Assembly: GCA_026396415.1 (NCBI GenBank)
Contig: JAPLWX010000015.1
Coordinates: 1-45,053 of the forward strand
From: Microcaldota archaeon
Lineage (GTDB): Archaea; Micrarchaeota; Micrarchaeia; Anstonellales; Anstonellaceae
DNA length: 45,053 nt
Direction of reading: 5' to 3'
Made by a program: the position numbers and the translations under genes. Positions 3,748 to 36,579 of the stretch are shown here, in pieces. Position 1 is the stretch's first letter, and each line of letters starts with the position of its first letter. Under the pieces are notes generated by a model, which saw only the letters and a program-made list of their open reading frames with translations, was not told the DNA's origin and made no database searches.

Positions 3748-4014
3748 ATGGCAGGAAGGGCAGATGGGGTTCTCATGGCGAAGCTGCTTGGCTCCATTAC
3801 GGAAAAGGGGATGAGCATCCGCCAGCTGTCCTGCAAGACAGGCATCAACTGCAAAACGGTCAGGAAGTTCATCGACCTGATAGTGCAGGTGCAGGGTTCG
3901 CCCAGGCTTAAGCTGGAGATGGTGGGCCTGCGGGTGCTTGTGACGCGGGAAAAGCCAGCTACGCCGAAAGCGCGCATCTGCGATAACCTGCCAAACCAAG
4001 AGCAAATGAGGTGA
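3748..4014 (+). CDS. small helix-turn-helix protein
   Basis: Small putative DNA-binding regulator of 88 residues from the ATG at 3748. The middle reads MSIRQLSCKTGINCKTVRKF, a helix-turn-helix pattern, followed by a strand-like wing (LKLEMVGLRVLVTRE). The reading frame is open back to an ATG at 3697, which directly abuts the second CCTAGG palindrome and would suit a leaderless start. The ATG at 3775 is also possible. It is probably co-translated with the next gene, whose GGTGA site overlaps this stop region. It likely controls its own promoter and perhaps that of the nuclease gene at 4319, since similar palindromes precede both. Confidence 0.65.
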   Translation: MAGRADGVLMAKLLGSITEKGMSIRQLSCKTGINCKTVRKFIDLIVQVQGSPRLKLEMVGLRVLVTREKPATPKARICDNLPNQEQMR

Positions 4015-4020
4015 TTTGGT

Positions 4021-4215
4021 ATGGCACAGAACGAAAAAACCGCCGTGGTTGACGGCAAGGAAAAGGGCGCGCCCGATTTTGTCGTGAAAATGCCCATGGA
4101 AGACGGCAAATGGATGAAGGTGGGGGTCGGCTTCTTCAATCCCCGAAGCGAATCGTACACCATCTACTTCGACATCATCCCGGACAGGCTGAAGGTCGTG
4201 ATGTTCAGGAGATAA
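4021..4215 (+). CDS. small conserved-looking hypothetical protein
   Basis: A 64-residue protein with a GGTGATTTGGT site directly before the ATG, six bases after the helix-turn-helix gene stop, so the two form an operon. The N-terminus is charged and probably disordered. The rest (about 20-64) looks like a small beta sheet with aromatic and hydrophobic alternation (VKVGVGFFNP, YTIYFDIIP). The family is not recognised. A role as partner of the preceding regulator is only suggested by coupling. Confidence 0.6.
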   Translation: MAQNEKTAVVDGKEKGAPDFVVKMPMEDGKWMKVGVGFFNPRSESYTIYFDIIPDRLKVVMFRR

Positions 4216-4255
4216 TGGCGGGCCATCCGCTGGGACTCAGATTCAGCGTCAGACA

Positions 4256-4294
4256 CTAGGAAGTGCGCTTCCTAGATCTGGCGATATCTATATA
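4256..4294. promoter_or_regulatory. inverted repeat plus TATA box before the nuclease gene
   Basis: CTAGGAAG and CTTCCTAG form an inverted repeat (4256-4275) with a 4-base centre, echoing the CCTAGG palindromes upstream. A TATA sequence TCTATATAAC follows at about 4286-4295, about 25-30 bases before the ATG at 4319, fitting a leaderless start. Confidence 0.5.
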
Positions 4295-4318
4295 ACCCCC
4301 CAAAAGCATGTTTTTATC

Positions 4319-5920
4319 ATGCAGTATTCTTACCCAAATATCGCACAACAGATGCTTACGTATTCAAAAAAATATAGCTCAATAGATTTGTCTGGCAAAA
4401 CCTTGCAAGGCGAGGCATTGAGGTTGGTTCTTAAGGATCTAATGGATTACGACCTCCTTTGTTTTGCAAATTCTATAAGCATATATGATAAGGAAAATCT
4501 TTTTGACATGGCTGGAAGAATGGTCCGAGGGGTTGAAGAGTTCATCAATCTTATGACGGAAATAGACCCAAATGACTACTGGACTGTAATGAATTTTCAA
4601 TTAGGAAATTATGACGCCATACCTGAATTAGACAGTATAATATATCGTAATTTTCAAGATCGAAAAGTCGTTGGCAGATTAATCAACATATATATTCAAT
4701 TAAGTGTTTTTAGTGAAACAACCCAGCGATTAGGCATCGATCTTGAGATAAGGACTATTGGGGATGGTATTGGCTATCTTCAATCAAGAAGAATATATCT
4801 CCAAACACTCCAATCGTTGATTGCACTATATTGTAATGGAACTCAAAAAATAGATAGCCGAGAAATGATGATTGTTCTGTTTCCTCCAATTGAATTTTAC
4901 TTGATGAGAATTGGCTATTTGAGCGATTATATTCCTCCCAGCTATTGTTTGGAAGACTATACTGTAAAAATCACTGGTACTTTTCCAGGTTATTCTTTTG
5001 AATCAAACTATGATTATAGAACTTTAGAAAACTTTTTTTTAGTGCCCCTTAGGTTTCCAGCAATGGAAATGCTCGAATATCTGGAATTTGATAAAACTAA
5101 AGCCAAACCCCCAAATAAAGCTAAAAATAAGATTTTCTCATTCGAAGAATTCGAGGTTATGCCCGAAAACTGGAAAGTCCTTTTTTCAGAATATGGACTG
5201 GATAAGTGCACTTTATTTGGAAAATATGCTGATCTATTCAAAGATTTGCGTCCCAACGTTCTACACGACTATTTTATTGCTATTAATAAAACGGCCCTAT
5301 TAGACAAAATAAAAACGTTTTTTGGTGAAAAGGAAACGAATGCCATCTATGACTCATTGTTGGTACCTGAGAACGACTTTATAGGCATGGTCAATTCGAG
5401 GAATCCTTTTGTCATATACAACGGGGTTCTTTATTCAAACGTAAATCTCCTCTCAAAATTTCTCATATTTCTTACCGAAGATTACTTAAACACGATAAAA
5501 AAATATCAAATAGATGCAGGGTTTGCATTCGAAAAGGTCATCAGCACTCTTCTTCAGAAGCACAAGTATGATATACGTGAAATAAAGCGAATAAAGAATA
5601 CGGGGGGCACCTATAGTGAATTTGATGTGATTGCATTGAAAGATGGCGAAGGATATAATTTTCAATGCAAGAACAACATTATTGACATATCCAACATAAA
5701 GACTGATCTTCATAAATTTAAACAGCGGAATGATTACTTGCTTGCAGCGTATGAAAAGGCCTACAATAAAGAATTGAACCGAGAGAAACATCTTTTAGAT
5801 AAACTAAGTGTAAAGGTAGTTCATCACGTCGTGGTAACTAGATTTCCGGTTATTACTCGTTCTCCACACATTATAACTTACCAGCGTTTTGAAGATTGGA
5901 TAAGAGAGAATCGATGTTAA
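4319..5920 (+). CDS. AT-rich protein with C-terminal PD-(D/E)XK nuclease-like domain
   Basis: A 533-residue protein, clearly more AT-rich than the transfer genes. Residues 1-390 match nothing I recognise. The C-terminal 140 residues hold a restriction-endonuclease-like pattern: helix FEKVISTLLQ (about 401), then EFDVIA (about 437) and FQCKN (about 453), i.e. E...D...QxK of the PD-(D/E)XK fold, Mrr-like. No transmembrane segments are evident. It would act on nucleic acid in the cytoplasm. It is followed 58 bp later, same strand, by another large nuclease-like gene, so the pair may be one defence module. Function and partner dependence are inferred. Confidence 0.6.
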   Translation: MQYSYPNIAQQMLTYSKKYSSIDLSGKTLQGEALRLVLKDLMDYDLLCFANSISIYDKENLFDMAGRMVRGVEEFINLMTEIDPNDYWTVMNFQLGNYDAIPELDSIIYRNFQDRKVVGRLINIYIQLSVFSETTQRLGIDLEIRTIGDGIGYLQSRRIYLQTLQSLIALYCNGTQKIDSREMMIVLFPPIEFYLMRIGYLSDYIPPSYCLEDYTVKITGTFPGYSFESNYDYRTLENFFLVPLRFPAMEMLEYLEFDKTKAKPPNKAKNKIFSFEEFEVMPENWKVLFSEYGLDKCTLFGKYADLFKDLRPNVLHDYFIAINKTALLDKIKTFFGEKETNAIYDSLLVPENDFIGMVNSRNPFVIYNGVLYSNVNLLSKFLIFLTEDYLNTIKKYQIDAGFAFEKVISTLLQKHKYDIREIKRIKNTGGTYSEFDVIALKDGEGYNFQCKNNIIDISNIKTDLHKFKQRNDYLLAAYEKAYNKELNREKHLLDKLSVKVVHHVVVTRFPVITRSPHIITYQRFEDWIRENRC

Positions 5921-5978
5921 CATCGGAGATTTGTTACTTAAGCGATAGTTTTATATCGTCAATATAGATAACTATTTT

Positions 5979-7931
5979 ATGGAGGTTAAAAAAGACCGCC
6001 TAACGAAAAGGGATCAGCGATTCCTTAGTCAGATATCTGCTAAATTAAGGTTGAGCACACCTGTAGGCATGGGTTTCTTAGCTGCACTGGATAAACTTGT
6101 CAATGATTATCCGTATCGTTCTCAGGCCGACCTAGACCCAACAAAACAGCAGTTAAATCAAACAGAGATTAAGAAGGTGTTCAAAAAGAAGTCGTCGAAT
6201 ACCCACCTGTACAAGTTTGGGTATCTTACAGCAGGTTCAAAACGAAAGCTAGTGGGGCTTGTTTTGAAAACCGAGTTGAGAACTTTGTACCGAAGTGGCA
6301 ACAAAGGCGAAACTATAAATGATAACGACTTCTCCATATTTTCAATTGACGGCAATCGAATCACATTCACTGGAAAAGAAAAGCAATTCAAAAAATACTT
6401 TTTAGATTATTACCACCACGACATTTTCTCTGTTGATCGTCCAGTTGTGCAACAAGATCCAAAGAAACTCAGTGAAACTTTTCTACTCGCTGGAAACAAG
6501 GACAATGCTCTAGAGATTTATCAATTACACCTTAATCAAACTAAAGATGGAAAGAAACTGCGAATTAGGATATTTTCCGACTCCGGCGCGTTAATGGAGA
6601 ACTTCAATAAGAGCCTTTTATCAGAAAAGCTATTAGACGGGGTTGAACTGAAAAACATCAATTCAATCGGCTTCAAAAAAGGCAATGATACGGTGACTTT
6701 GAAAATCAGCCGTGTTAATGCCAACCAGTTTCTTCTTAGGTGGAAGAGCAAAAATAAGCTGAGCAAAGAACTTTCCAACAAGTTCAATATAGGTGATTCG
6801 GATTCGGTCATATTTGACCAAATGAATGAAGCCGCTCTTATTAGCGACCTCTTTAGGGAAGTCAAATTACTCCCATATCAAAAAAACAAAATCTACCAGT
6901 CTATTCTAAAGGATAGATTTTATTCTGACTTGATAAAGATAGATAAAAACTCGGTTCCTTGGCTTAATTATGATTCATTAAGCAAGAAGCTGCAGGCAAC
7001 TCTTCGGGGCAATGGAGCGAAAATCAATGTTACACGAGTAAAGAAAAAGTGCGGAGTATTCTTTCCAAGCAGAAAAGCCAAAGGCTCAAGTCCGCATAAG
7101 AGGTTGTTGGTTATAAGTAAAAAGAGCAAAATAGTGCAGCACCTTCTGATAGACCATCAGCAAATCTATAACATGGGCGAACAAGCAGCATTAAAGCAGT
7201 ATTTTGTTTTTGTCCCATTTCTAGTTCTTGACTTCCGGAAAAACCAAAGAGAAGATTATACTGACGAGAAAAACCAGGAATTGTTGTTAAGCAGCGGTGC
7301 TTTTCTCAGCGATTTGAAGAATAAACCGAATGATGTTTCTAATCTTGTATTAAATAAAAGCAAAAAAATAATCGAGGATAAATTACTTGACCAGTATTTC
7401 CAGGTTGCGTGTGAGCTTCTTGATAACCTTGCGAGTATCAATCCATTGCTTGACTCCCAGCAGAAAGGGGCACTGTTCGAATCCCTCTGCTTTTGCATCC
7501 TTTCCCGCATTCTTCTTACTAAGAAAGTTGGAAATGCCTACGAGCCGGATGGAAAGTTTATTCTTGATGATGAGAAAATAATTTATGACGCAAAGAACTT
7601 AGGCAAACGGGCGGATAATCCCCTTTTGGCTAGTGTATCCCATAAGGGCAAAATCAAGGATATCTCTTATATCAAGAATGAAGGGGTAAAAAATTACATC
7701 TATATTGTTAATGAAACTCCCGAGGCGCATTTCAAACCTGTAAAAGAAGCAATAGAACGAGAATGTAATGGCTGCAAAGTTTCTGCAATAACCCTGAGTG
7801 CCGTTCGCGATATCGTAAATGTGTATAAAAAAGATCCAAGAAAAATCTCACAAACTAAGCTGAAAAGTGCCATTCTTTCCGGTACTCTCAAATCATCTAT
7901 TGCTGAGTCTGAGATAACAGTCGATGTCTAA
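5979..7931 (+). CDS. AT-rich protein with FokI-like C-terminal cleavage domain
   Basis: A 650-residue protein. The N-terminal 480 residues are Lys-rich and not recognised; they could be a DNA-recognition or sensor part. Near residues 505-545 a nuclease pattern appears: helix GALFESLCFCILSR, then EPDGKFIL and IIYDAKN. This E...PDG...DxK layout resembles the cleavage domain of FokI-type type IIS enzymes. It follows the 533-residue nuclease-like gene, and a methyltransferase gene lies downstream. That methyltransferase has its own promoter box and different base composition, so a restriction-modification pairing is uncertain. A stand-alone or two-gene anti-phage system is equally possible. Confidence 0.6.
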   Translation: MEVKKDRLTKRDQRFLSQISAKLRLSTPVGMGFLAALDKLVNDYPYRSQADLDPTKQQLNQTEIKKVFKKKSSNTHLYKFGYLTAGSKRKLVGLVLKTELRTLYRSGNKGETINDNDFSIFSIDGNRITFTGKEKQFKKYFLDYYHHDIFSVDRPVVQQDPKKLSETFLLAGNKDNALEIYQLHLNQTKDGKKLRIRIFSDSGALMENFNKSLLSEKLLDGVELKNINSIGFKKGNDTVTLKISRVNANQFLLRWKSKNKLSKELSNKFNIGDSDSVIFDQMNEAALISDLFREVKLLPYQKNKIYQSILKDRFYSDLIKIDKNSVPWLNYDSLSKKLQATLRGNGAKINVTRVKKKCGVFFPSRKAKGSSPHKRLLVISKKSKIVQHLLIDHQQIYNMGEQAALKQYFVFVPFLVLDFRKNQREDYTDEKNQELLLSSGAFLSDLKNKPNDVSNLVLNKSKKIIEDKLLDQYFQVACELLDNLASINPLLDSQQKGALFESLCFCILSRILLTKKVGNAYEPDGKFILDDEKIIYDAKNLGKRADNPLLASVSHKGKIKDISYIKNEGVKNYIYIVNETPEAHFKPVKEAIERECNGCKVSAITLSAVRDIVNVYKKDPRKISQTKLKSAILSGTLKSSIAESEITVDV

Positions 7932-24862: not shown

Positions 24863-27800
24863 TCATTCAGCCAGCCAAGCACCAGCAAGCAGCTTTGTCT
24901 GTTCAAGCACAGTATCAGTTGCCTTCTTTTGCTTGTCTGGGGGATAACCGTATCTTCGCAGTATACGTTTTACAATGACGCGCATTTCAGACTGCACACT
25001 CTGCTTGAGCGTCCAGTCAATGGAAACACTGTTCCTGACTGCTTTGACCAATTCCCTTGCGATTGTTTTCAGAGTGTCGTCCCCGAGCACTTTTACCGCG
25101 CTGTCATTGGTTTCGAGCGCGTCATAGAACGCCAGCTCGTCATCATTCAAGCCCAAATCCACTCCACGGTCTGTTTCCTCATTGATTTTCTTGGCCAAAT
25201 TGATAAGTTCTTCCACAACCTGAGCCGAGTCAAGGTTCCTGTTCAAGTAGGCGCGGACGGCCTCTTCCAGCATTTCCGAGAATTGCCTTGCCCTTATCGC
25301 GTTTTTCTTCGCCATCTTCTTTGTCGCGTCGTTTATCAGCTTCCTCAGGACTTCAAGCGCGAGGTTCTTCTGGGGCATGTTCCTTACTTCATCAAGGAAT
25401 TCATCTGAAAGAATGGAAATGTCCGGCCTTTTCAGGCCCGCAACTTCGAAAATGTCAATTACCTGGTCTGAGCTTATTGCCTTGGAAACTATCTGCTTGA
25501 TGGCAGCGTCGGTCTTTTGGCTGTCGCCTGAAGAGGTTATTGTGTATTTGACAAATTGCGCCTTTATTGCCTGGAAGAATGCCAGCTCGTCGCGTATTTT
25601 CGTGGCTTCCGGGTGGGGATAGGCGAGCGCAAACGCGCGCGAAAGCATGTCCACATTTTTCATGAACCTGTCCTTTTGCCCTTTCTGCGAAAGCAGGCGC
25701 TCGATGGTCTGTATTACGATGTACTTTTCCTTAAGGGGAGACTTGAGGAACTGCAGATAACTGACACCATGGAGCATATCCTTCACTATCTCATACTTTT
25801 CAAGCATCGTCTTGACGACCTTTTCCTTGTCAATCGCAGTTTCGCTTCTGTCCTCCTTGGTGTAGTTTGCAAGCGCGACCTTGAGGTTTTCGGCAAGCCC
25901 GATATAGTCAACCACCAGGCCGCCTGGCTTGTCCCTGAACACCCGATTTACCCTGGCAATTGCCTGCATCAATCCATGCCCGCGCATGGGCTTGTCAACA
26001 TAAATGGTGTGCAGACAGGGGATGTCGGTGCCTGTAAGCCACATGTCGCGGACAATCACCATCTTTATCGGGCTTGCGGGCTTTTTGAAAAGAAGCTCGA
26101 TTTCCTTTCTCCTTGGCTTGTTCCTTATGTGGGGCTGCCAATCCAGCTTATCTGTCGCAGAACCAGTCATAATCACTTTTACAACGCCTTTCTTGTCGTC
26201 TTCACTGTGCCACGCCGGGCGAAGCCGGATTATTTCATTGTAAATATCAACGCAAATCCTTCTGCTCATGGCAACGACAAGCACCTTGCCTTCCATTGCC
26301 TCCTGCCGCTTGTCATAGTGGGCGAGCAAATCCTCCACAACCTGCTTTATGCGCTTCTGGCTGCCTACCAGTGCTTCTAGCCTGCTCCATTTGCTCTTGA
26401 GCTTTTCCTTGTGCTCGACTTCCTCCCCTTCGGTAACTTCCTCGAATTCCTCGTCAAGCTTTGGCTTTTCCTCTTCCTTAAGCTCTATTTTGGCAAGCCT
26501 GCCCTCATAGTAGATTGGAACGGTTGCCCTGTCCTTTACGGCTCTCTCAATACTGTAAACATCAACATATTCGCCGAAAACCGCCCTCGTGTCCCTGTCC
26601 ACAAGCTCAATTGGCGTGCCGGTAAAGCCTATGAACGCGGCATTTGGCAGCGCGTCGTGCATGTGCCTTGCAAACCCGCTTATGAAGCCGTATTGGCTTC
26701 TGTGCGCTTCATCCGCGATAACCACGATATTCTTCCTGTCTGAGAGCAGCGGATAAGCGGTTCCTTTCTCATCAGGGAAGAACTTTTGGATGGTGGTGAA
26801 AATAATTCCTCCAGCGGGCCTTGAAAGGAGCTTCTTCAGGCTGTCCCTTGAATCTGCCTGGACCGGCGCCTGCCTAAGGATTGGGGAATTGGCGCAGAAA
26901 GTGTCGAAAAGCTGCCCGTCCAAGTCGTTTCTGTCGGTTAAGACAACAACGGTAGGATTGTTCATCCTGTCATCAAGGAAAAGTAAGCCCGTGTAAAGAA
27001 CCATGGTAAGGCTTTTGCCAGAGCCTTGCGTGTGCCAGACCACGCCGCCTTGCCTGTTTCCTTTCGCGGAGGTTGCCTTTATGGTTGAGGCAAGAGCGGC
27101 TTTCACTGCCCTGTATTGGTGATACTGAGCTATTTTCTTCTTCAGCCCCTCGCCAATGTCCTCGAAAAGAACAAAATGCCTTGCAAAATCAAGCAAAACC
27201 TCCTTTTTCAGCATTCCTCTCAGCATGACTTCCATGGGCATTATTGTCGGGTCATCAACGGTTTCGCCATCAAGCAGCTTCCATTTCATGAACCAGTTCT
27301 GCTCGCTTGTTATCGAGCCAACGCGCGCGTCTCCCGCGTCGCTGAGCATGATAAGCTCGTTGTAATGGAAAAGGGAGGGGATTTGCAACTTGTAGGTCTG
27401 TATTTGGTTGTAGGCTGAGCTGATATCCGCTTTTTCATCGGCAATGTTCTTCAGCTCAATAACTACCAAGGGAAGCCCGTTCACGAAAACGATTATGTCC
27501 GGGCGCCTATTGTTGTTCTGCTCTATTATGGTGAATTGGTTTATGGCTGCAAACTCGTTGTTCTTTGGGTTTTCAAAGTCGAAAAGCCAGAGTTTCTTGC
27601 TCGTCTGCTTGCCCTTTTCCTTTACCTGAACATCTATTCCATTGACGAGGAGATTGTGGAATGCCTGGTTGTTCTTCACCAAGTTCTGGCTTTCCGCGCG
27701 CTGGAGCTTCTTTACAGCGTCGTCGATTATCTCTTCCGGCAAGGTAGGATTGATGCGTTTAAGCGCGCGTTTGAGCCTTCCAGTAAGCACAACCTGCGAA

Positions 27801-27934
27801 TAGCTTTCGCGCTCAGGCCGCACACCGTCAGGTGCAGGCGCAATGTCGGGCCCATAAACTATCTCGTAGCCCATGCTGGCGAAGAGCTTGAGCGCGTGCT
27901 CCTCAATTTCGGATTCAGTTATGTAGGCGGGCAT
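24863..27934 (-). CDS. hsdR: type I restriction enzyme R subunit
   Basis: A 1023-residue DNA translocase-nuclease. The N-terminal nuclease domain has the PD-(D/E)XK signature RRPDIIVF...VVIELKN (about 142-162). The superfamily-2 helicase motor follows with Walker [11 protein letters not shown] (about 298), DEAH in [12 protein letters not shown] (about 400) and the later helicase motifs. It cuts unmodified DNA after ATP-driven translocation when bound to the M and S subunits. It is the last gene of the leftward operon hsdM - two membrane genes - hsdS - two HEPN-like genes - hsdR. All key motifs are present, so it is probably active. Confidence 0.95.
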
Positions 27935-27938
27935 CTTC

Positions 27939-29780
27939 TTACCTACTTGTTGTGTTCTTTAATATTTTAATCAGTTTTAATAGGCAATATGCTAGGTATT
28001 TTACATTTCCTTCAATTATCTGTGCGGATTCGAGTTTTCCGTGTAATAAATCATTACGGAGATTTGCTTGGTCATTGTCAGTTAAAGCAACTTTGAGTGT
28101 CTTTTGCAAATCAACACCTATAAGCTCTCCAATTTCATCTTTTGAGAGGAGTGAACCAAGTTCTATTGAACGGAAATATTTCTCTTTTTCATTCCGTAAA
28201 ACTAAATCAACTTTTCCGGCTTTTCGGACAGTTCGCCGCAGAATTTCCTCAAAATAGGGCATGAGGATATGCACTCCTGCGATGAAATCCGGTTTGTCTG
28301 AGAAAATGTAATTGAACCCCTGTTTTAATGTTGGTTTAATATCATCTAGATCAGGATTATCAAGCAGTTCATCAATATACGTGTAAGATTCTTTTCCAAA
28401 TTCGCGCTCCATTTCTTCTAGAGTGTACTTAAGCATAAGTTCACCAATCTTCATTCCGAGTAAAGTGTTCTTTCGCACCCAATAATCGAAAATATCTTCT
28501 TCTTGTGATATTTGTAAAACTGGCTCCTCACTTCGACTCACAACAACTGGAAAGATGTAAAGCAGTGGCGACTCTTTCTTTTGTTCCAAAGTAGATTTTA
28601 AAGTGTGTTCATAGGACGGAATAAGCTCAGAGTTATCTATCAAAGCCTTAAAGGGATTGGAATCTGTATCAGTTAGCTGTTTGAGGAATTGGTCGATTTG
28701 GGCTTTTTTGATTTCAAAGGTAGAACTAACTTGTTTATAACGTATTTTCGGCCCCATCTCAGTAATCTCAGATGTAAGTTCGTTGATTCTTCTCTTAATC
28801 TCATCCTTATGTTCTGGAAACGAACCTAGCATTGACTGATATTTTTTTGCCGCATCAGTGCAAAATGAAGAACGCAAAAGTTCTCCTCTTCCATTTCCTT
28901 CATTAATGTGGGATTCTGCAATTTTATTATGGAGATCATACAGTTTTTCTTTAGGTGAATATCGAATCTTTAACTCAAGATAGCTCCTTAGAAAATGATA
29001 GTTGCGGCTGGTTTCAACTGTTTTTTCGATATCAGCTATACACTTATCAAGTTGTTCTGCACTTTCTTTTTTTAGTTCATCAAGACCTTGAATTTTAGCT
29101 AGATATCTTGCTTCGACTTGGAAGAGTTCTAACTGCCATCGTTTCTCACCGCCAGTAATAAGTTTGATTATGGAGTGATGGAGTGACGAGAAAACTCGTT
29201 TGGATAGCTCTTGGTCGTTAATTGAAAGACTCAATTTGAGGGCAATATCATACGCCAGAGGAGGAATTTCATAATATTCCGGATATTTGCCATCATTGAT
29301 ATATTTCTCCGCAGTCTCGAGCCAGCCTTCGATGGATTTTTTCATCCAATCTAGATGCTCCTTGCCAGTACTAAATGTCATTATAGCAAACGCATATCTT
29401 GCTTTTGATAATGGACTGGTTGTTTGTTCATAGCGTATTTTGTAATAGTCTACGGCATCTGAGGACCATTCACAAAATGGAGGATTAGATAACGGTCCGA
29501 AGTCTCCAGATTCTTTGCCTAAGTAGTACTTCCACTTGTTGCTAATCTCTGTTACTTCTTGCCCCTTGTATTGGCCAACATGACCAAATGTTCTATTGAG
29601 AAGATCGACCTCCCAAAGTATCTTCTTTTGAGTATCAACATCTTTATTATCGACAACCTCGCCCATCACTTTCCCGAGTTCTCGTTCGATTTCAAAAGGA
29701 AACATTCGTTCATAATTTGAACTAAGGGCCACTTCAAGAAGTTTGATTACGCTTGTTTGGTTGTACTTAGATATATCCAT
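27939..29780 (-). CDS. DUF4209-like protein with C-terminal HEPN-like motif
   Basis: A 613-residue, AT-rich helical protein. Residues 1-480 look like helical repeats with no family I can name firmly. The C-terminal part ([20 protein letters not shown] then [10 protein letters not shown], about 583) resembles DUF4209, with the RN-xxx-H signature of HEPN RNase domains. The ATG at 29780 follows GGTGTGAG. It overlaps the preceding gene and ends five bases before hsdR. HEPN ribonucleases inside hsd loci are known in bacteria (PrrC, RloC), so an RNA-cleaving back-up to restriction is plausible. Activity is inferred. Confidence 0.6.
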
Positions 29781-30681
29781 TATACTCACACCATGTTAGA
29801 AATTGCCCAAAATAAACTGTCAATAATAATACATCATCCGGAAGATGTGGACTTTTCAGCCCATAATGAGCGAAAGTGGTTCTGATACCATTTATCCTCT
29901 CGACACTGTCGATAACAATCTTACCTTCCTGCTCATTATCTGGCTTTGTATTGAAGACGTTCTTGCTATTTAGATTAGAATCAAGGAGTTTAACTTTGAA
30001 CAATCCATCTTTATCTGCACTTTTTGTTGCAGGATTTTCCGAAAGTAAATAAGGTTTTCCTTTAAGAGTTTTAAGATTTGCACCTATTGAAAATCCTTCA
30101 TTTAATGAAATGCTTTCCTTTTGAGCGATTCTAAATAGCAATTCCTCCGTGATTACGCATAATGAATATGCTGAATAATAGGCATGCCGAACATCATATG
30201 TTTCATTATAATCTTGGAAAGCATCAAGTGCAAACTTAATCCGTTCCGAAATATCAGTTGTTTTGCCTTCCAAATAGTCTCTGAGGACAAAAAATGGGAG
30301 TCCAATAACTGATTTTAAATCTGTGTTTTCTTTTATATCCGATATATGAATTTCATCTGATTTTATCTCGGCGTTTAGAGTAGAATTTAGTTCTTCTAGC
30401 TTTTGTTTAGATAGGGTGTATACATCTTTCAAATCATCCTCGATATGTGCAATAAAGAAGCCCCCAGCCCACCCATATTCTTTCTCGTTTATTCTTAGGT
30501 GTTTTTTAGTATCTGCGTTGTTTGTTTGAAGACACAACCCAGTTCTTTTTTTTATATCATCAAGATTAATGTTATTGCCTAAACGTATTTGTACGCAATA
30601 TATTTTCCCACAATATGGGTTCATAAGGAAACTGGTGTAAAGTTTTATTGTTTCTTTTGCAACGGGTAGGTTATCCACCAT
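29767..30681 (-). CDS. hypothetical protein with HEPN-like RxxxxH motif
   Basis: A 304-residue, AT-rich protein. The N-terminal half is mixed alpha-beta. The C-terminal half is helical and ends with GIRTTFAHYG (about 271), an Rx4H pattern like that of HEPN domains. The stop overlaps the next gene, also HEPN-like, by 14 bases, and the start overlaps the hsdS stop (TAATG). The tight coupling says it is made together with HsdS and the following protein. It may be a partner or control subunit of the larger HEPN-like protein. Family not recognised. Confidence 0.55.
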   Translation of the reverse strand: MVDNLPVAKETIKLYTSFLMNPYCGKIYCVQIRLGNNINLDDIKKRTGLCLQTNNADTKKHLRINEKEYGWAGGFFIAHIEDDLKDVYTLSKQKLEELNSTLNAEIKSDEIHISDIKENTDLKSVIGLPFFVLRDYLEGKTTDISERIKFALDAFQDYNETYDVRHAYYSAYSLCVITEELLFRIAQKESISLNEGFSIGANLKTLKGKPYLLSENPATKSADKDGLFKVKLLDSNLNSKNVFNTKPDNEQEGKIVIDSVERINGIRTTFAHYGLKSPHLPDDVLLLTVYFGQFLTWCEYNGYI

Positions 30682-31994
30682 TAATTCACCCGTATTTTTC
30701 CAGACATTAGTTTTGGAAGAAGAGACCCACGGAGCTGGGTAATATTGTCGTTTTCATTAAGATTATATTCATACTTGCTGAATAGTTTTTCTACCATTTG
30801 AGAAAATTTCTTTTGCATATCTATAGGTGGAGCAACAAATCTAAATGATAAAAGTAGTTTTGTATTAAGCGATGGTCTAGTTGAGCCTACTGCATACCCA
30901 TTTACCATATCTATGAACAGAGATTGTTTGAAAACTTGTGCCAAATATTGTGGATTTATCTTAGTCTTATCTGCTCTTACTCGGAGCATTTGCCCGGAAA
31001 TCATCCACGCAGTGTTTCTATCTCGTATAATTGCGGACTCTCCTACAACAGCTACCCTAGTAAATACTATATCACCATAATTTAAGAGATAACGATTCAT
31101 TTCTGGAAACTTATGGACTCCGACCAAAGGCATGTCAGAACCCACTATCTGACCATTCTTTACATGCTTAACTAATATCAATGGCACACCTGTATTGCGA
31201 TAATCTGCTGAATGCAGATTACTACCAAATGGGCCAGTAATCACGCAGTCACTTTTCGAATCGTGAAGTTCTGCTAGTGAAGTTACTTCCCACCCTTCAG
31301 GTATTTCTCCTAGTTCCGACTCCACCATCTTCCCGCCACTCGACTTATAGGATCTGCCTTTTTCGTCCAGAAACTCGAAATCCACGAACCAGTGCTTGAA
31401 GATTGTCTGTGCCATCTCCTCAAGTGTCTTGTTCATCTGGCGGTTCAGGTCGATTCTTGCATCAAAATCGGAAAGAATTTTGGCGATGGAGTGCTGCTCA
31501 GGGAGTGGTGGAATTGTGATTTTTTCGTTGGCGAACACTTTTTCTTGGACGCGCTGTCGCCCGGATGTACCAGACATAGACCTTATGGCCACATTTCTCA
31601 GTGCAGATGATTTTGCGAGATAATAGACAAATTCATTGATACTTTTTCCATCCTTGCCCGACAATACAATAAATTCTGTCGATCCCCAAGCAATTTCCCC
31701 ATTTTTCAGGAAATCGACATAAGCAGTTTTACCATTCTCAAGACAGGGGCTGATGCGTGCCAAAAGCGTATCTCCGTTTTGGAATTTTGACCCTCCATAA
31801 AATTTTCGTTCCACATAATATGTGACTGACTTTTGATTGGCAGTTATATCCGCCATGGATACGTACTTTGCAACATCGTTTTTCTTTAGTTCCCTCTTTG
31901 GATTAATCGAAACGCATTCACTGATTGTGTCTTCTTTCCAGTTTGTCAATTTAAGCACCCATTTTCTGTCAGAGCCGCAGGTTTGAAATATCAT
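30681..31994 (-). CDS. hsdS: type I restriction enzyme S (specificity) subunit
   Basis: A 437-residue DNA-recognition subunit with two target-recognition domains. The first lies at about 15-160, followed by IPPLPEQHSIAKILSDFDARIDLNRQMNKTLEEMAQ, the typical conserved helical spacer. The second begins at EIPEGWEVTSLAELHDS (about 235) and ends in a C-terminal helix. It sets the sequence methylated by HsdM and guarded by HsdR. The AT-rich character of its recognition domains is usual for exchanged modules. Confidence 0.93.
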   Translation of the reverse strand: MIFQTCGSDRKWVLKLTNWKEDTISECVSINPKRELKKNDVAKYVSMADITANQKSVTYYVERKFYGGSKFQNGDTLLARISPCLENGKTAYVDFLKNGEIAWGSTEFIVLSGKDGKSINEFVYYLAKSSALRNVAIRSMSGTSGRQRVQEKVFANEKITIPPLPEQHSIAKILSDFDARIDLNRQMNKTLEEMAQTIFKHWFVDFEFLDEKGRSYKSSGGKMVESELGEIPEGWEVTSLAELHDSKSDCVITGPFGSNLHSADYRNTGVPLILVKHVKNGQIVGSDMPLVGVHKFPEMNRYLLNYGDIVFTRVAVVGESAIIRDRNTAWMISGQMLRVRADKTKINPQYLAQVFKQSLFIDMVNGYAVGSTRPSLNTKLLLSFRFVAPPIDMQKKFSQMVEKLFSKYEYNLNENDNITQLRGSLLPKLMSGKIRVN

Positions 31995-31997
31995 GCA

Positions 31998-32849
31998 TCA
32001 CTTGCAGAATTTTTGCTCTATCTCCAAGATTTTCATGCCATCAATGGTTCCATAATTGCCGTCATCGTCTGCCTTGTCATCAATTTCTAATCCCTCTTCG
32101 CGCTGTTTTTCATCTGCTGGCCGGTATGAAAGAGAGCCGCCGTAATATATCAGGTCTTTTCCGTTCACATGGATGGAGAGTTGCACAGATACGGGATTCG
32201 AAAACCAGTGTTCCTCTATCTTTTTCTCGTTGAAAATCACTATTGGCACGCCATCGTTGAAGTAGATAGGTAGATTTGCTATTGGCATATTGCGCTCAAG
32301 CCCGCCAAGATAAACTTCTTTCAAATCAAAGACGCACTCCAAGTCAATCGCCTCGTGCGGTTGTAGATTTATCGGCAATGATGGCTTCCTTGATGCCGGG
32401 CGCAGGGTAAAGCAGGTCGGTTTGCCGTATTTGTCAAGCCCAGCCTCTTTGTGCTTTTTCCTGTCGTATTTGAACGTTCCAAGGATATCGGTTATGCAGA
32501 TGCTCTCTTCTTTATTATTGATTATTCCAACGTGTAGCTTACCTCTCAGGTTTGCAAGGCGATTTTTCATTCCTGCTTGTTTCTGCATGCGGTCGCGAAC
32601 CCTCTTTGGTATCTTCGCGTTGCCCTGATAGCCTTTGTTTTCTCCTACTAACGCCACGCCGCCCTCTTGTATAGGGATGCCTGAGAGGACTAAGGTTCGT
32701 TCACCTGTGAAATATAAATGACCTGTAGCATAAGAAACCTCAATCTTCTTCGTCAATTTCTTCCATAACGAGTAGGCGACCTGAACGGCAGCGTACGCGC
32801 CACCTATTATCCCCATTACAGTGTATGCCAATGCAAAATCAAACGTCAT
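31998..32849 (-). CDS. membrane-anchored hypothetical protein in the hsd operon
   Basis: A 283-residue protein with one N-terminal transmembrane segment (about 5-28), a basic stretch, then a mostly beta cytoplasmic domain and an acidic C-terminus. The ATG at 32849 is embedded in a relic of the hsdM 3' end. No family is recognised. It lies between the two-helix membrane protein and hsdS, so it is likely made with the restriction complex. It could be an effector or sensor tied to it. Confidence 0.55.
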   Translation of the reverse strand: MTFDFALAYTVMGIIGGAYAAVQVAYSLWKKLTKKIEVSYATGHLYFTGERTLVLSGIPIQEGGVALVGENKGYQGNAKIPKRVRDRMQKQAGMKNRLANLRGKLHVGIINNKEESICITDILGTFKYDRKKHKEAGLDKYGKPTCFTLRPASRKPSLPINLQPHEAIDLECVFDLKEVYLGGLERNMPIANLPIYFNDGVPIVIFNEKKIEEHWFSNPVSVQLSIHVNGKDLIYYGGSLSYRPADEKQREEGLEIDDKADDDGNYGTIDGMKILEIEQKFCK

Positions 32850-32892
32850 ACCCAATTCCCTTCATGTTCTTCTTTATCTCCTTCTTAAGCTC
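32839..32892 (-). pseudogene. duplicated 3' end of hsdM
   Basis: Read on the minus strand this 54-base piece encodes [17 protein letters not shown] and a stop, out of frame with both neighbours. The functional hsdM ends [18 protein letters not shown]. The two tails share near-identical DNA. In both cases the tail overlaps the ATG of the gene that follows. It marks the spot where a gene was inserted behind or into hsdM. Confidence 0.75.
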
Positions 32893-33569
32893 CACCGATT
32901 TGTTGTGCGGCTATCTTTCCTTTTCTCATGTTCACTAGCATGTTCTTTAACTCAGACAAAAAGGCGCCGTGCTTATCTACGGGCGTATTAATTAATCTCT
33001 CAATATCTGTTTCACTCGCAATTGATGTGTTGAGTTCGACTTTGAGCAGGTGGAGAAGCTCTATTGCTTCTTCAACATCATCGAGATCTTTATCTACTGG
33101 TTTTATTGTTTTATTATATAGATACTCATACCAGATTAATCCAAATATGACACATGCAATAAACACGCCCATGGCAATTACAAGCAATCCGAACGTACCA
33201 GCTATTGATTTGTTAGCTTGCGCGTAACTATCTGCAAGGTTGATCCAGTTAAGGGTTGAATTAAGCACGGTTTCTTTCAGAGAAGTTGAATTGGTTTGAT
33301 TGAAATTGCAAAATGGACCGTTTACAAGACTGTTTACTTGCTCTTGCGTTTTTGATACTGCCTCTAAGGTCAACCCACTAGTCTGTACTACGGATGAAAA
33401 GAATGTACCTAATAGCAATGCTATCGTTAATGCTATTGTACTTATTGCAAGAAATGTATCTATTCTGTTTTTCTTTTCTGTCATCTGTTCGTTCTTGATG
33501 CGCATAAGTATTTCCTGCTGGAACTTGAAGTAGGCGATTGACTTTTCAATAAATGCTTCTTCCTGTGCA

Positions 33570-33583
<14 letters not shown>
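32885..33583 (-). CDS. two-transmembrane protein inserted behind hsdM
   Basis: A 232-residue protein: an N-terminal helical region, two transmembrane helices (about 46-70 and 125-150), then a helical cytoplasmic tail (about 160-232). The ATG at 33583 overlaps the hsdM stop codon. The gene is flanked by the true hsdM end and by a copied hsdM end, suggesting it entered by recombination. The layout resembles small membrane effectors of abortive-infection systems, but no family is recognised. Confidence 0.55.
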
Positions 33584-35093
<1,510 letters not shown>

Positions 35094-35110
35094 ATAAACA
35101 CCATCATTCC

Positions 35111-35124
35111 GGCTAATATTAGCC
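35111..35124. promoter_or_regulatory. palindrome upstream of hsdM
   Basis: GGCTAATATTAGCC is a perfect 14-bp palindrome 18 bases before the chosen hsdM ATG, in the gap after the AlbA-type gene. It is a candidate operator for the restriction operon. Confidence 0.45.
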
Positions 35125-35171
35125 ATTTAGGCCTCAAATTCACATACTACGGCCAGGACGTTCCCCTCACA

Positions 35172-36515
35172 TTAACGTCCTTTAACTTCCCATTTTCCGC
35201 CTCTAGCGGGACCGACATGCTTGAGCACGCCGTCCTTCTTGAGCTTGCGCAATCTGGAGAGTATCGTGCTTGCAGGCTCATTCAGCGTCTGGGCGAGCTT
35301 TTTACGTGATATGGTCGGATTCGTTCGAATAACCTCTAGAAGTTTCAGATACTTTTCGGATACTTTTCTGGTACTTTTCAGCTTATCCTCGTCGGTCGTT
35401 TCTGATACTTTTTCCTGTGTGGCTTCTTTTCTCTTGAACACCGTTATGAACTGCCTTCCCACTTCCTTGAACGTTGCCGTGGGCTCCTTGCTGAGAATCT
35501 TCGGTATCCCGCGCCCCCATTTCTCAATGAAGTGTATGCGGTGGAGCATCTGGGCGATCAGCGGGTTCCTCCTGGACGACACGCCTCCCTTCCTGATGCT
35601 TGCAATGGTCAGATTGCCATAAAGGAGCCCCGGGCTCCGTATCTCCAGCCTGTCCGGGAATATTGCCACCTGCACCTCCTGGGAGTTGTAGTAGTCCCGG
35701 TGGCAGAAGGCGTTGATGACCGCCTCGCGGAACGCCTCCGGGTCGATTTCAGGGACATCTGCCCTGTAAAGTCCTTCCAGCCGCTCTCCGGTATGTATGT
35801 TCTTGAGTATGTAGGACTGCGCCTCTTCGATGAGCGAGAACAGGTCCCCTTCGTAATCCTTCATGTCGATTATCGTGTAGGCGTTCGTGAACACGGCGCA
35901 GCGGAGCTGGGCATTCTGCATGAATTTCTGCGGCGCACGCCCGAACAGGAGGACTGCAGTGTTCGTGAGCGCCCCGCTTGGGGAAAGCATAAGACCTAGG
36001 TTGTGCAGCGCGACATCCGTTGATACGAATTCAAGATTGGCCTTTTTGAGGAAAACGCCCAATTTCCCAGGGTCGATGTCGCTGAGCTTGGCATCGTGGC
36101 AGGGCTTGTCGTCCCAGTGGAGCGCCTCCTTGTTCTTGTGCAAGTATAACTCCTGCAGCTCCTTGCTGCTCAAGACCCGATTCGCGTCCCCAACCCGTGT
36201 GTAGGCGCGCCCGTAGGCGAAATAAGGCATATCGTTGCCGCTGGTTTTGACCCGTATGCAGCTTTGCCCTTCGATGGCTTCTTCCTTTATGCTGGGGAAT
36301 ATCTCGGGTTCCATGTGGTCCTGGATGGACTTCGAAATCTCGGTCATCGTCATCTTTCCGATGGTCTGGCCCACAACCTTCCCGCTGTCCTCTATGCCAA
36401 AGATGACTTCGCCCTGCCCATGCTTGTTGAGCATGGCTGAGATGGAGATAATCGCCTCCTTGAGTTCGGAGGTTGATTTCTTCAGCTCCAGGGTTTCTGT
36501 TTCCTTGAACAACAT
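35172..36515 (-). CDS. Schlafen/AlbA_2-type putative regulator or helicase-like protein
   Basis: A 447-residue protein. The N-terminal AlbA_2/Schlafen domain includes TLELKKSTSELKEAIISISAM and GEVIFGIEDSGKVVGQ (about 5-55). A middle domain of the ATP-dependent-helicase RecG-like/HATPase_c_4 type has INAFCHRDY and VAIFPDRLEIRSPG (about 255-290). A C-terminal winged helix (LLEVIRTNPTISRKKLAQTLNEP) follows. The ATG at 36515 is preferred. It lies directly upstream of hsdM and is divergent from the gene at 36718 across a repeat array. Such proteins often accompany restriction systems; it may regulate this one. Confidence 0.75.
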   Translation of the reverse strand: MLFKETETLELKKSTSELKEAIISISAMLNKHGQGEVIFGIEDSGKVVGQTIGKMTMTEISKSIQDHMEPEIFPSIKEEAIEGQSCIRVKTSGNDMPYFAYGRAYTRVGDANRVLSSKELQELYLHKNKEALHWDDKPCHDAKLSDIDPGKLGVFLKKANLEFVSTDVALHNLGLMLSPSGALTNTAVLLFGRAPQKFMQNAQLRCAVFTNAYTIIDMKDYEGDLFSLIEEAQSYILKNIHTGERLEGLYRADVPEIDPEAFREAVINAFCHRDYYNSQEVQVAIFPDRLEIRSPGLLYGNLTIASIRKGGVSSRRNPLIAQMLHRIHFIEKWGRGIPKILSKEPTATFKEVGRQFITVFKRKEATQEKVSETTDEDKLKSTRKVSEKYLKLLEVIRTNPTISRKKLAQTLNEPASTILSRLRKLKKDGVLKHVGPARGGKWEVKGR

Positions 36516-36579
36516 CGGCGAACGCCTCACATGCCCCAATTAAGGCACGGAGTATAAAAAAGCTTGGCATAAGAAAGCC

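Follow-up and report, generated by a model that had tools for sequence, protein, structure and literature searches.

A type I restriction-modification (R-M) operon is carried on the minus strand of the 45,053-nucleotide stretch of DNA analysed here, referred to as the window, which derives from the contig JAPLWX010000015.1 of a Microcaldota archaeon. Its genes are transcribed in the order Schlafen/AlbA gene, hsdM, P4, P3, hsdS, P2, P1 and hsdR (Table 1), and the three subunits required of a type I system, HsdM, HsdS and HsdR, appear intact with their catalytic motifs. An earlier note on this DNA had pointed to two overlapping genes between hsdS and hsdR whose products carry RNDLLH (P1) and RTTFAH (P2) in their C-termini, and both open reading frames, on the minus strand, and both motifs were indeed found there.

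Table 1. Genes of the type I R-M operon and of its embedded cargo, with positions in the window
Feature	Coordinates	Strand	Basis
HsdR restriction subunit	24863..27934	-	GSGKS, DEAH, PD...ELK motifs intact
P1, DUF4209/C6orf70 protein, predicted TPR-like N-terminus and C-terminal HEPN domain	27939..29789	-	Pfam/PADLOC match, residue conservation, AlphaFold model
P2, orphan of 304 aa, probably a divergent HEPN protein	29767..30681	-	motif layout; relatives: none found
HsdS specificity subunit	30681..31994	-	Methylase_S, E 1.9e-28
P3, cargo of the hsdM-hsdS gap, 285 aa with one apparent membrane segment at the N-terminus	31998..32855	-	segment read from sequence
P4, 234 aa, two apparent membrane segments, AT-rich cargo between hsdM and hsdS	32885..33589	-	segments read from sequence
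HsdM methylase subunit	33570..35126	-	NPPF motif intact
Schlafen/AlbA_2 - HATPase_c_4 - wHTH protein, at the head of the minus-strand gene cluster	35172..36539	-	domain matches

From hsdS through hsdR, successive genes overlap or almost touch. The hsdS stop and the P2 ATG overlap in TAATG, the start of P1 overlaps the end of P2, and the P1 stop lies 4 nt upstream of the hsdR ATG. The P1 reading frame has the full length given in Table 1 if a GTG at 29789 is used as start; the ATG at 29780, which yields 613 aa, is more likely and is the one from which residues are numbered below.

Family membership and predicted structure of P1

Residues 514-595 of P1 correspond to Pfam DUF4209 (PF13910), one of the families to which the earlier note had directed attention, with a score of 32.1 bits above the curated cut-off of 22.3 (E 1.3e-7), and the protein also matches PADLOC PDC-S39 (E 4e-23). 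The RNDLLH motif occupies residues 575-580, and the upstream HEPN signature E-x3-[KR] is found as E511-x3-R515 beside R575-x4-H580. Among 34 aligned sequences, counting P1, no variation was seen at R575, H580, G581, E511 and H504, and R515 was conserved in at least 90%; the family motif of this set reads RNxxxHG, an Asn following the Arg in most homologues. The Rx4H motif by itself was found in 38% of P1 shuffles, that is, not above chance, and it is the family match together with the invariance of R575 and H580 that raises it above chance. The earlier note had made its case depend on the conservation of these two residues among homologues, and in P1 they are conserved. In addition, alignment of P1 with the RiboL-PSP HEPN profile brought the Rx4H motifs together (P 4e-4, probability 34%).

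The AlphaFold model of P1, built with the homologue alignment, is confident (mean pLDDT 83.7). A TPR-like helical N-terminus is predicted, followed by a mostly helical C-terminus with confident helices at 482-493, 499-520, 548-567, 574-579 and 590-609. Foldseek with full-length P1 returned helical-repeat proteins (BamD, LGN TPR, IFIT1) at low TM-scores and no HEPN structure among the matches listed, since helical repeats dominate the fold search; these matches fit the predicted TPR-like N-terminus and do not themselves show a HEPN fold. Only repeat proteins were found in the fold search against viral proteins, and the profile of the HEPN domain gave no HEPN match among PDB sequences. Of the four-helix HEPN core that the earlier note had anticipated, helices are predicted in the HEPN region of P1, and a matching HEPN structure was not found among the fold matches listed. 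The case for P1 as a HEPN protein thus comes chiefly from its family and its conserved residues, and on these grounds it is well supported. P1 is not of a new kind: DUF4209/C6orf70 is already listed as a HEPN family of R-M operons and is the PADLOC candidate PDC-S39, and P1 is an archaeal addition to this known kind.

P2 and its relation to P1

In the 304-aa P2, RTTFAH stands at residues 267-272 with E180-x3-R184 upstream. The search for relatives was negative: no Pfam match was obtained for the full-length protein or for its C-terminal half, and no homologue was detected in plasmids, phages, IMG/VR and GTDB contigs, in 301 genomes of its own phylum or in 371 genomes of the phylum of the Pacearchaeota relative of P1 described below. 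Matches at E 0.001-0.009 were short and judged to be due to chance; one of them, read as a gene (L012), encodes a DnaK-type protein. A 301-aa HEPN-like protein (L090) of similar layout by eye was also considered as a look-alike, and hhalign gave nothing. The idea that P1 and P2 arose from one gene by duplication was rejected, the match of P2 to the DUF4209 profile being insignificant and off the motif.

The best profile match of P2, a marginal one (p about 0.005-0.015), is DUF4145, a HEPN family, centred on the motif (hhalign P 0.015). It was equalled by 1 of 200 shuffles and beats all negative fragments tested on that profile, and because five profiles were tried the corrected support amounts only to about 0.05. 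Of the P2 shuffles, 1.1% show the combined layout, in which Rx4H falls within the last 64 residues and E-x3-[KR] precedes it by 60-120 residues. Both results argue against the alternative that RTTFAH is there by chance and that P2 has some other role in the operon. This alternative, which is doubtful, draws on the 16% of P2 shuffles in which Rx4H is found by itself, on the failure of even the C-terminal half to match any family, and on a structure model that is uninformative. The latter, predicted by AlphaFold from the single sequence, has a pLDDT of 33, and its Foldseek list was meaningless, as expected from such a model; helices of low confidence do fall at the expected HEPN places, at 165-188 (containing E180 and R184), 259-272 (ending in RTTFAH) and 282-300. 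P2 is likely to be a HEPN protein, probably a divergent one, and this falls short of proof because the tests were picked after the sequence had been seen and several profiles were tried. Thus, of the HEPN identity that had been proposed for both proteins, the part concerning P1 stands and that concerning P2 is probable only.

It had also been proposed that one of the two proteins might control the other, as in a toxin-antitoxin or heterodimeric pair. The overlap of the genes and the presence of Rx4H in both products would favour such a pair, and the distribution of P1 relatives speaks against it. The nearest of them, 44% identical over the full length, lies on a Pacearchaeota contig in the order HsdR-128aa-DUF4209-HsdS, without P2. 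Since this closest relative belongs to another type I operon, one that lacks P2, the two genes do not form a conserved toxin-antitoxin unit. Elsewhere too, R-M-linked relatives of P1 stand without P2: a Bacteroidetes contig has the order HsdM-HsdS-DUF4209-HsdR, a slot identical to that of P1, and on the archaeal contig L103 a DUF4209 gene adjoins a C5-methylase-like gene. Among the open reading frames of all retrieved loci no convincing P2 relative was found. Moreover, P2 matches no antitoxin family, and a minimal nucleotidyltransferase, the adjacent antitoxin expected in a HEPN-MNT toxin-antitoxin system, was matched neither by P2 nor by the other cargo genes. The survey of other hsd operons for the pair therefore yielded P1-type genes without P2, and control of one protein by the other, very improbable in our estimate, is the least likely of the readings considered. 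Within the collections searched, the combination of P1 and P2 is local to this operon.

Cargo of the operon and its distribution

P1 and P2 are AT-rich cargo in the hsdS-hsdR slot, which in sister operons either holds nothing or holds other genes. The GC content of hsdM and hsdR is 0.496 and 0.500 (GC3 0.60 and 0.62), and that of P2, P1 and P4 is 0.341, 0.372 and 0.379 (GC3 0.28, 0.33 and 0.37), with intermediate values for hsdS (0.405) and P3 (0.455). In a related operon of the phylum (L077) the slot is empty and the order is HsdM-HsdS-HsdR. Among the sister operons, L076 carries a gene of 304 aa in the hsdM-hsdS gap; in L078, hsdS is preceded by Schlafen/AlbA and 140-aa genes and followed by a 311-aa gene; and in L079 it is preceded by Schlafen/AlbA and a 212-aa gene and followed by a 385-aa gene. 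With the exception of Schlafen/AlbA, this cargo is likewise more AT-rich than hsdM and hsdR. A second AT-rich block is present in the window at 4319-7931 (+), where two large open reading frames have a GC of 0.35-0.39 compared with about 0.50-0.60 in their surroundings.

Some of the sister cargo is HEPN-like in appearance. The 385-aa hsdS-hsdR cargo protein (L079:10983-12140) has the C-terminus YRNMIHG, in register with the DUF4209 motif (P 0.01) and with an R-to-H spacing one residue shorter. The C-terminus of the 304-aa AT-rich cargo protein (L076:9719-10633), IRSELKSHSD, is HEPN-like by eye and has no profile support.

Other genes are embedded in or near the operon. The AlbA_2 - HATPase_c_4 - wHTH gene lies directly upstream of hsdM, and homologues of 52-70% identity occur in or adjoining sister hsd operons (L078:10435-11814, L078:7271-8530 and L079:7716-9056). 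In BREX systems this architecture has been described as a suicidal effector that serves as back-up (PMC12839542). P3 and P4 have no relatives in Pfam, NCBIfam and plasmids, and in the PADLOC-DB 2.0 catalogue P2, P3 and P4 have no match, P3 reaching Mem_04 at a sub-significant E of 0.04. Together, the putative membrane proteins P4 and P3 are possibly another embedded effector module.

With regard to DUF4209, recognisable R-M genes were observed at 8 of 47 loci from genome contigs, a raw count on retrieved DNA, and were absent nearby from the remaining 39, where some contigs end early. Linkage to R-M is thus frequent and not a rule. In the phylum itself the domain was found in 4 of 301 genomes, in three of them above the cut-off, a rarity that fits horizontal spread. 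One and the same DUF4209 protein of 587 aa is encoded at locus L018 of a Candidatus Micrarchaeota MAG and in genome G272, both of the class to which the genome of the window belongs. The L103 locus (4011-7918) consists of the archaeal DUF4209 gene, the C5-methylase-like gene and a 372-aa gene, possibly the restriction partner, which suggests a type II R-M setting. An isolated 143-aa C-terminal piece, 54% identical to P1, was also noticed (L102:7687-8118) and is apparently a decayed remnant.

A possible back-up role and its known counterparts

On balance, we favour the view that P1 and P2 are embedded back-up effectors in a type I R-M operon whose own genes are all present, with a logic similar to that of PrrC. 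The N-terminal helical-repeat region of P1 would hold the protein or sense a signal, and its HEPN domain would cut RNA via R575 and H580, backed by E511-x3-R515. P1 would be made together with the R-M subunits and held silent; if restriction failed or was inhibited during infection, it would be released, RNA would be cleaved and the host cell would be stopped, as in an abortive back-up. P2 would probably be a second, divergent HEPN protein in the same slot that works in parallel and not as an antitoxin. In support of embedded back-up effectors, we counted the family membership, conserved residues and confident helical model of P1, the translational coupling suggested by the gene overlaps, the presence of DUF4209 in other hsd operons and with R-M genes at 8 of 47 loci, the AT-rich nature of the cargo, the empty or otherwise occupied sister slots and the occupation of the same slot by DarTG2 in E. 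coli (PMC12255303), and for P2 its motif layout and its DUF4145 match. Counted against them were the many DUF4209 loci that lack an R-M gene, the fold search with no HEPN structure among the matches listed for P1, and a P2 that has neither relatives nor a usable model.

The chief rival to a guarded effector is that P1 and P2 work autonomously in defence, with triggers of their own, using the R-M operon as landing site and promoter and escaping any control by the HsdMSR complex. The 39 loci without R-M genes on the retrieved DNA indicate that P1-type proteins can work without R-M, PDC-S39 is treated by PADLOC as a single-gene candidate, and the cargo in sister slots is unrelated. However, the repeated embedding with different R-M types and the tight gene overlaps fit functional coupling at least equally well, and we consider autonomous cargo to be rather unlikely. 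A more speculative extension of the back-up effector view, which we regard as less probable still, is that P2 is the first member of a new HEPN family and that the operon is a stacked unit of archaeal immunity, with several independent suicide effectors under the guard of a single type I R-M system, namely Schlafen/AlbA, the P4-P3 membrane module, the P2 HEPN and the P1 TPR-HEPN, all released when restriction is blocked. Since the closest P1 relative occurs in another archaeal group and another hsd operon, and since the sister slots are empty or differently filled, the hsdS-hsdR and hsdM-hsdS gaps are natural places in which to seek undescribed effectors of archaea, with P2, P3 and P4 as candidates.

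C6orf70, which overlaps DUF4209, has been described as a HEPN family with a conserved Rx4-6H, TPR fusions and R-M related operons (Anantharaman et al. 2013, PMC3710099). P1 resembles it in its domain, in Rx4-6H and E-x3-[KR], in its predicted N-terminal helical repeats and in its R-M operon setting. The family was described from Bacteria and Eukaryotes, whereas P1 and its Pacearchaeota relative are archaeal. An uncultivated archaeal phylum thereby lends support to the 2013 prediction that HEPN RNases act as second-line weapons of R-M systems; the layered-defence arrangement is familiar and the lineage is new.

The comparison with PrrC made in the earlier note is borne out in its logic. PrrC, which is associated with the PrrI type Ic R-M system, has a C-terminal HEPN-type RNase and a proposed back-up function beside a type I hsd operon, as P1 would have, and the principle of a silent RNase beside R-M that is freed on the defeat of restriction has been generalised to such families (PMC3710099). 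The genes of P1 and P2 likewise lie within a type I hsd locus. Neither protein matches PrrC or RloC in sequence, and the difference in layout seen earlier was confirmed: the anticodon nucleases PrrC and RloC carry an N-terminal ABC ATPase fused to HEPN, while P1 and P2 have no ABC match and the N-terminus of P1 appears to be helical repeat-like instead. In E. coli EPEC (RRDM island), the hsdS-hsdR slot of a type I operon is also filled by a second defence module, DarTG2, whose proteins are unrelated to P1 and P2, and the site has been proposed as a recombination hotspot (PMC12255303). Finally, PDC-S39, the family matched by P1, belongs to the phage defence candidates collected by guilt-by-embedding (Payne et al. 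2024 preprint, PADLOC-DB 2.0).
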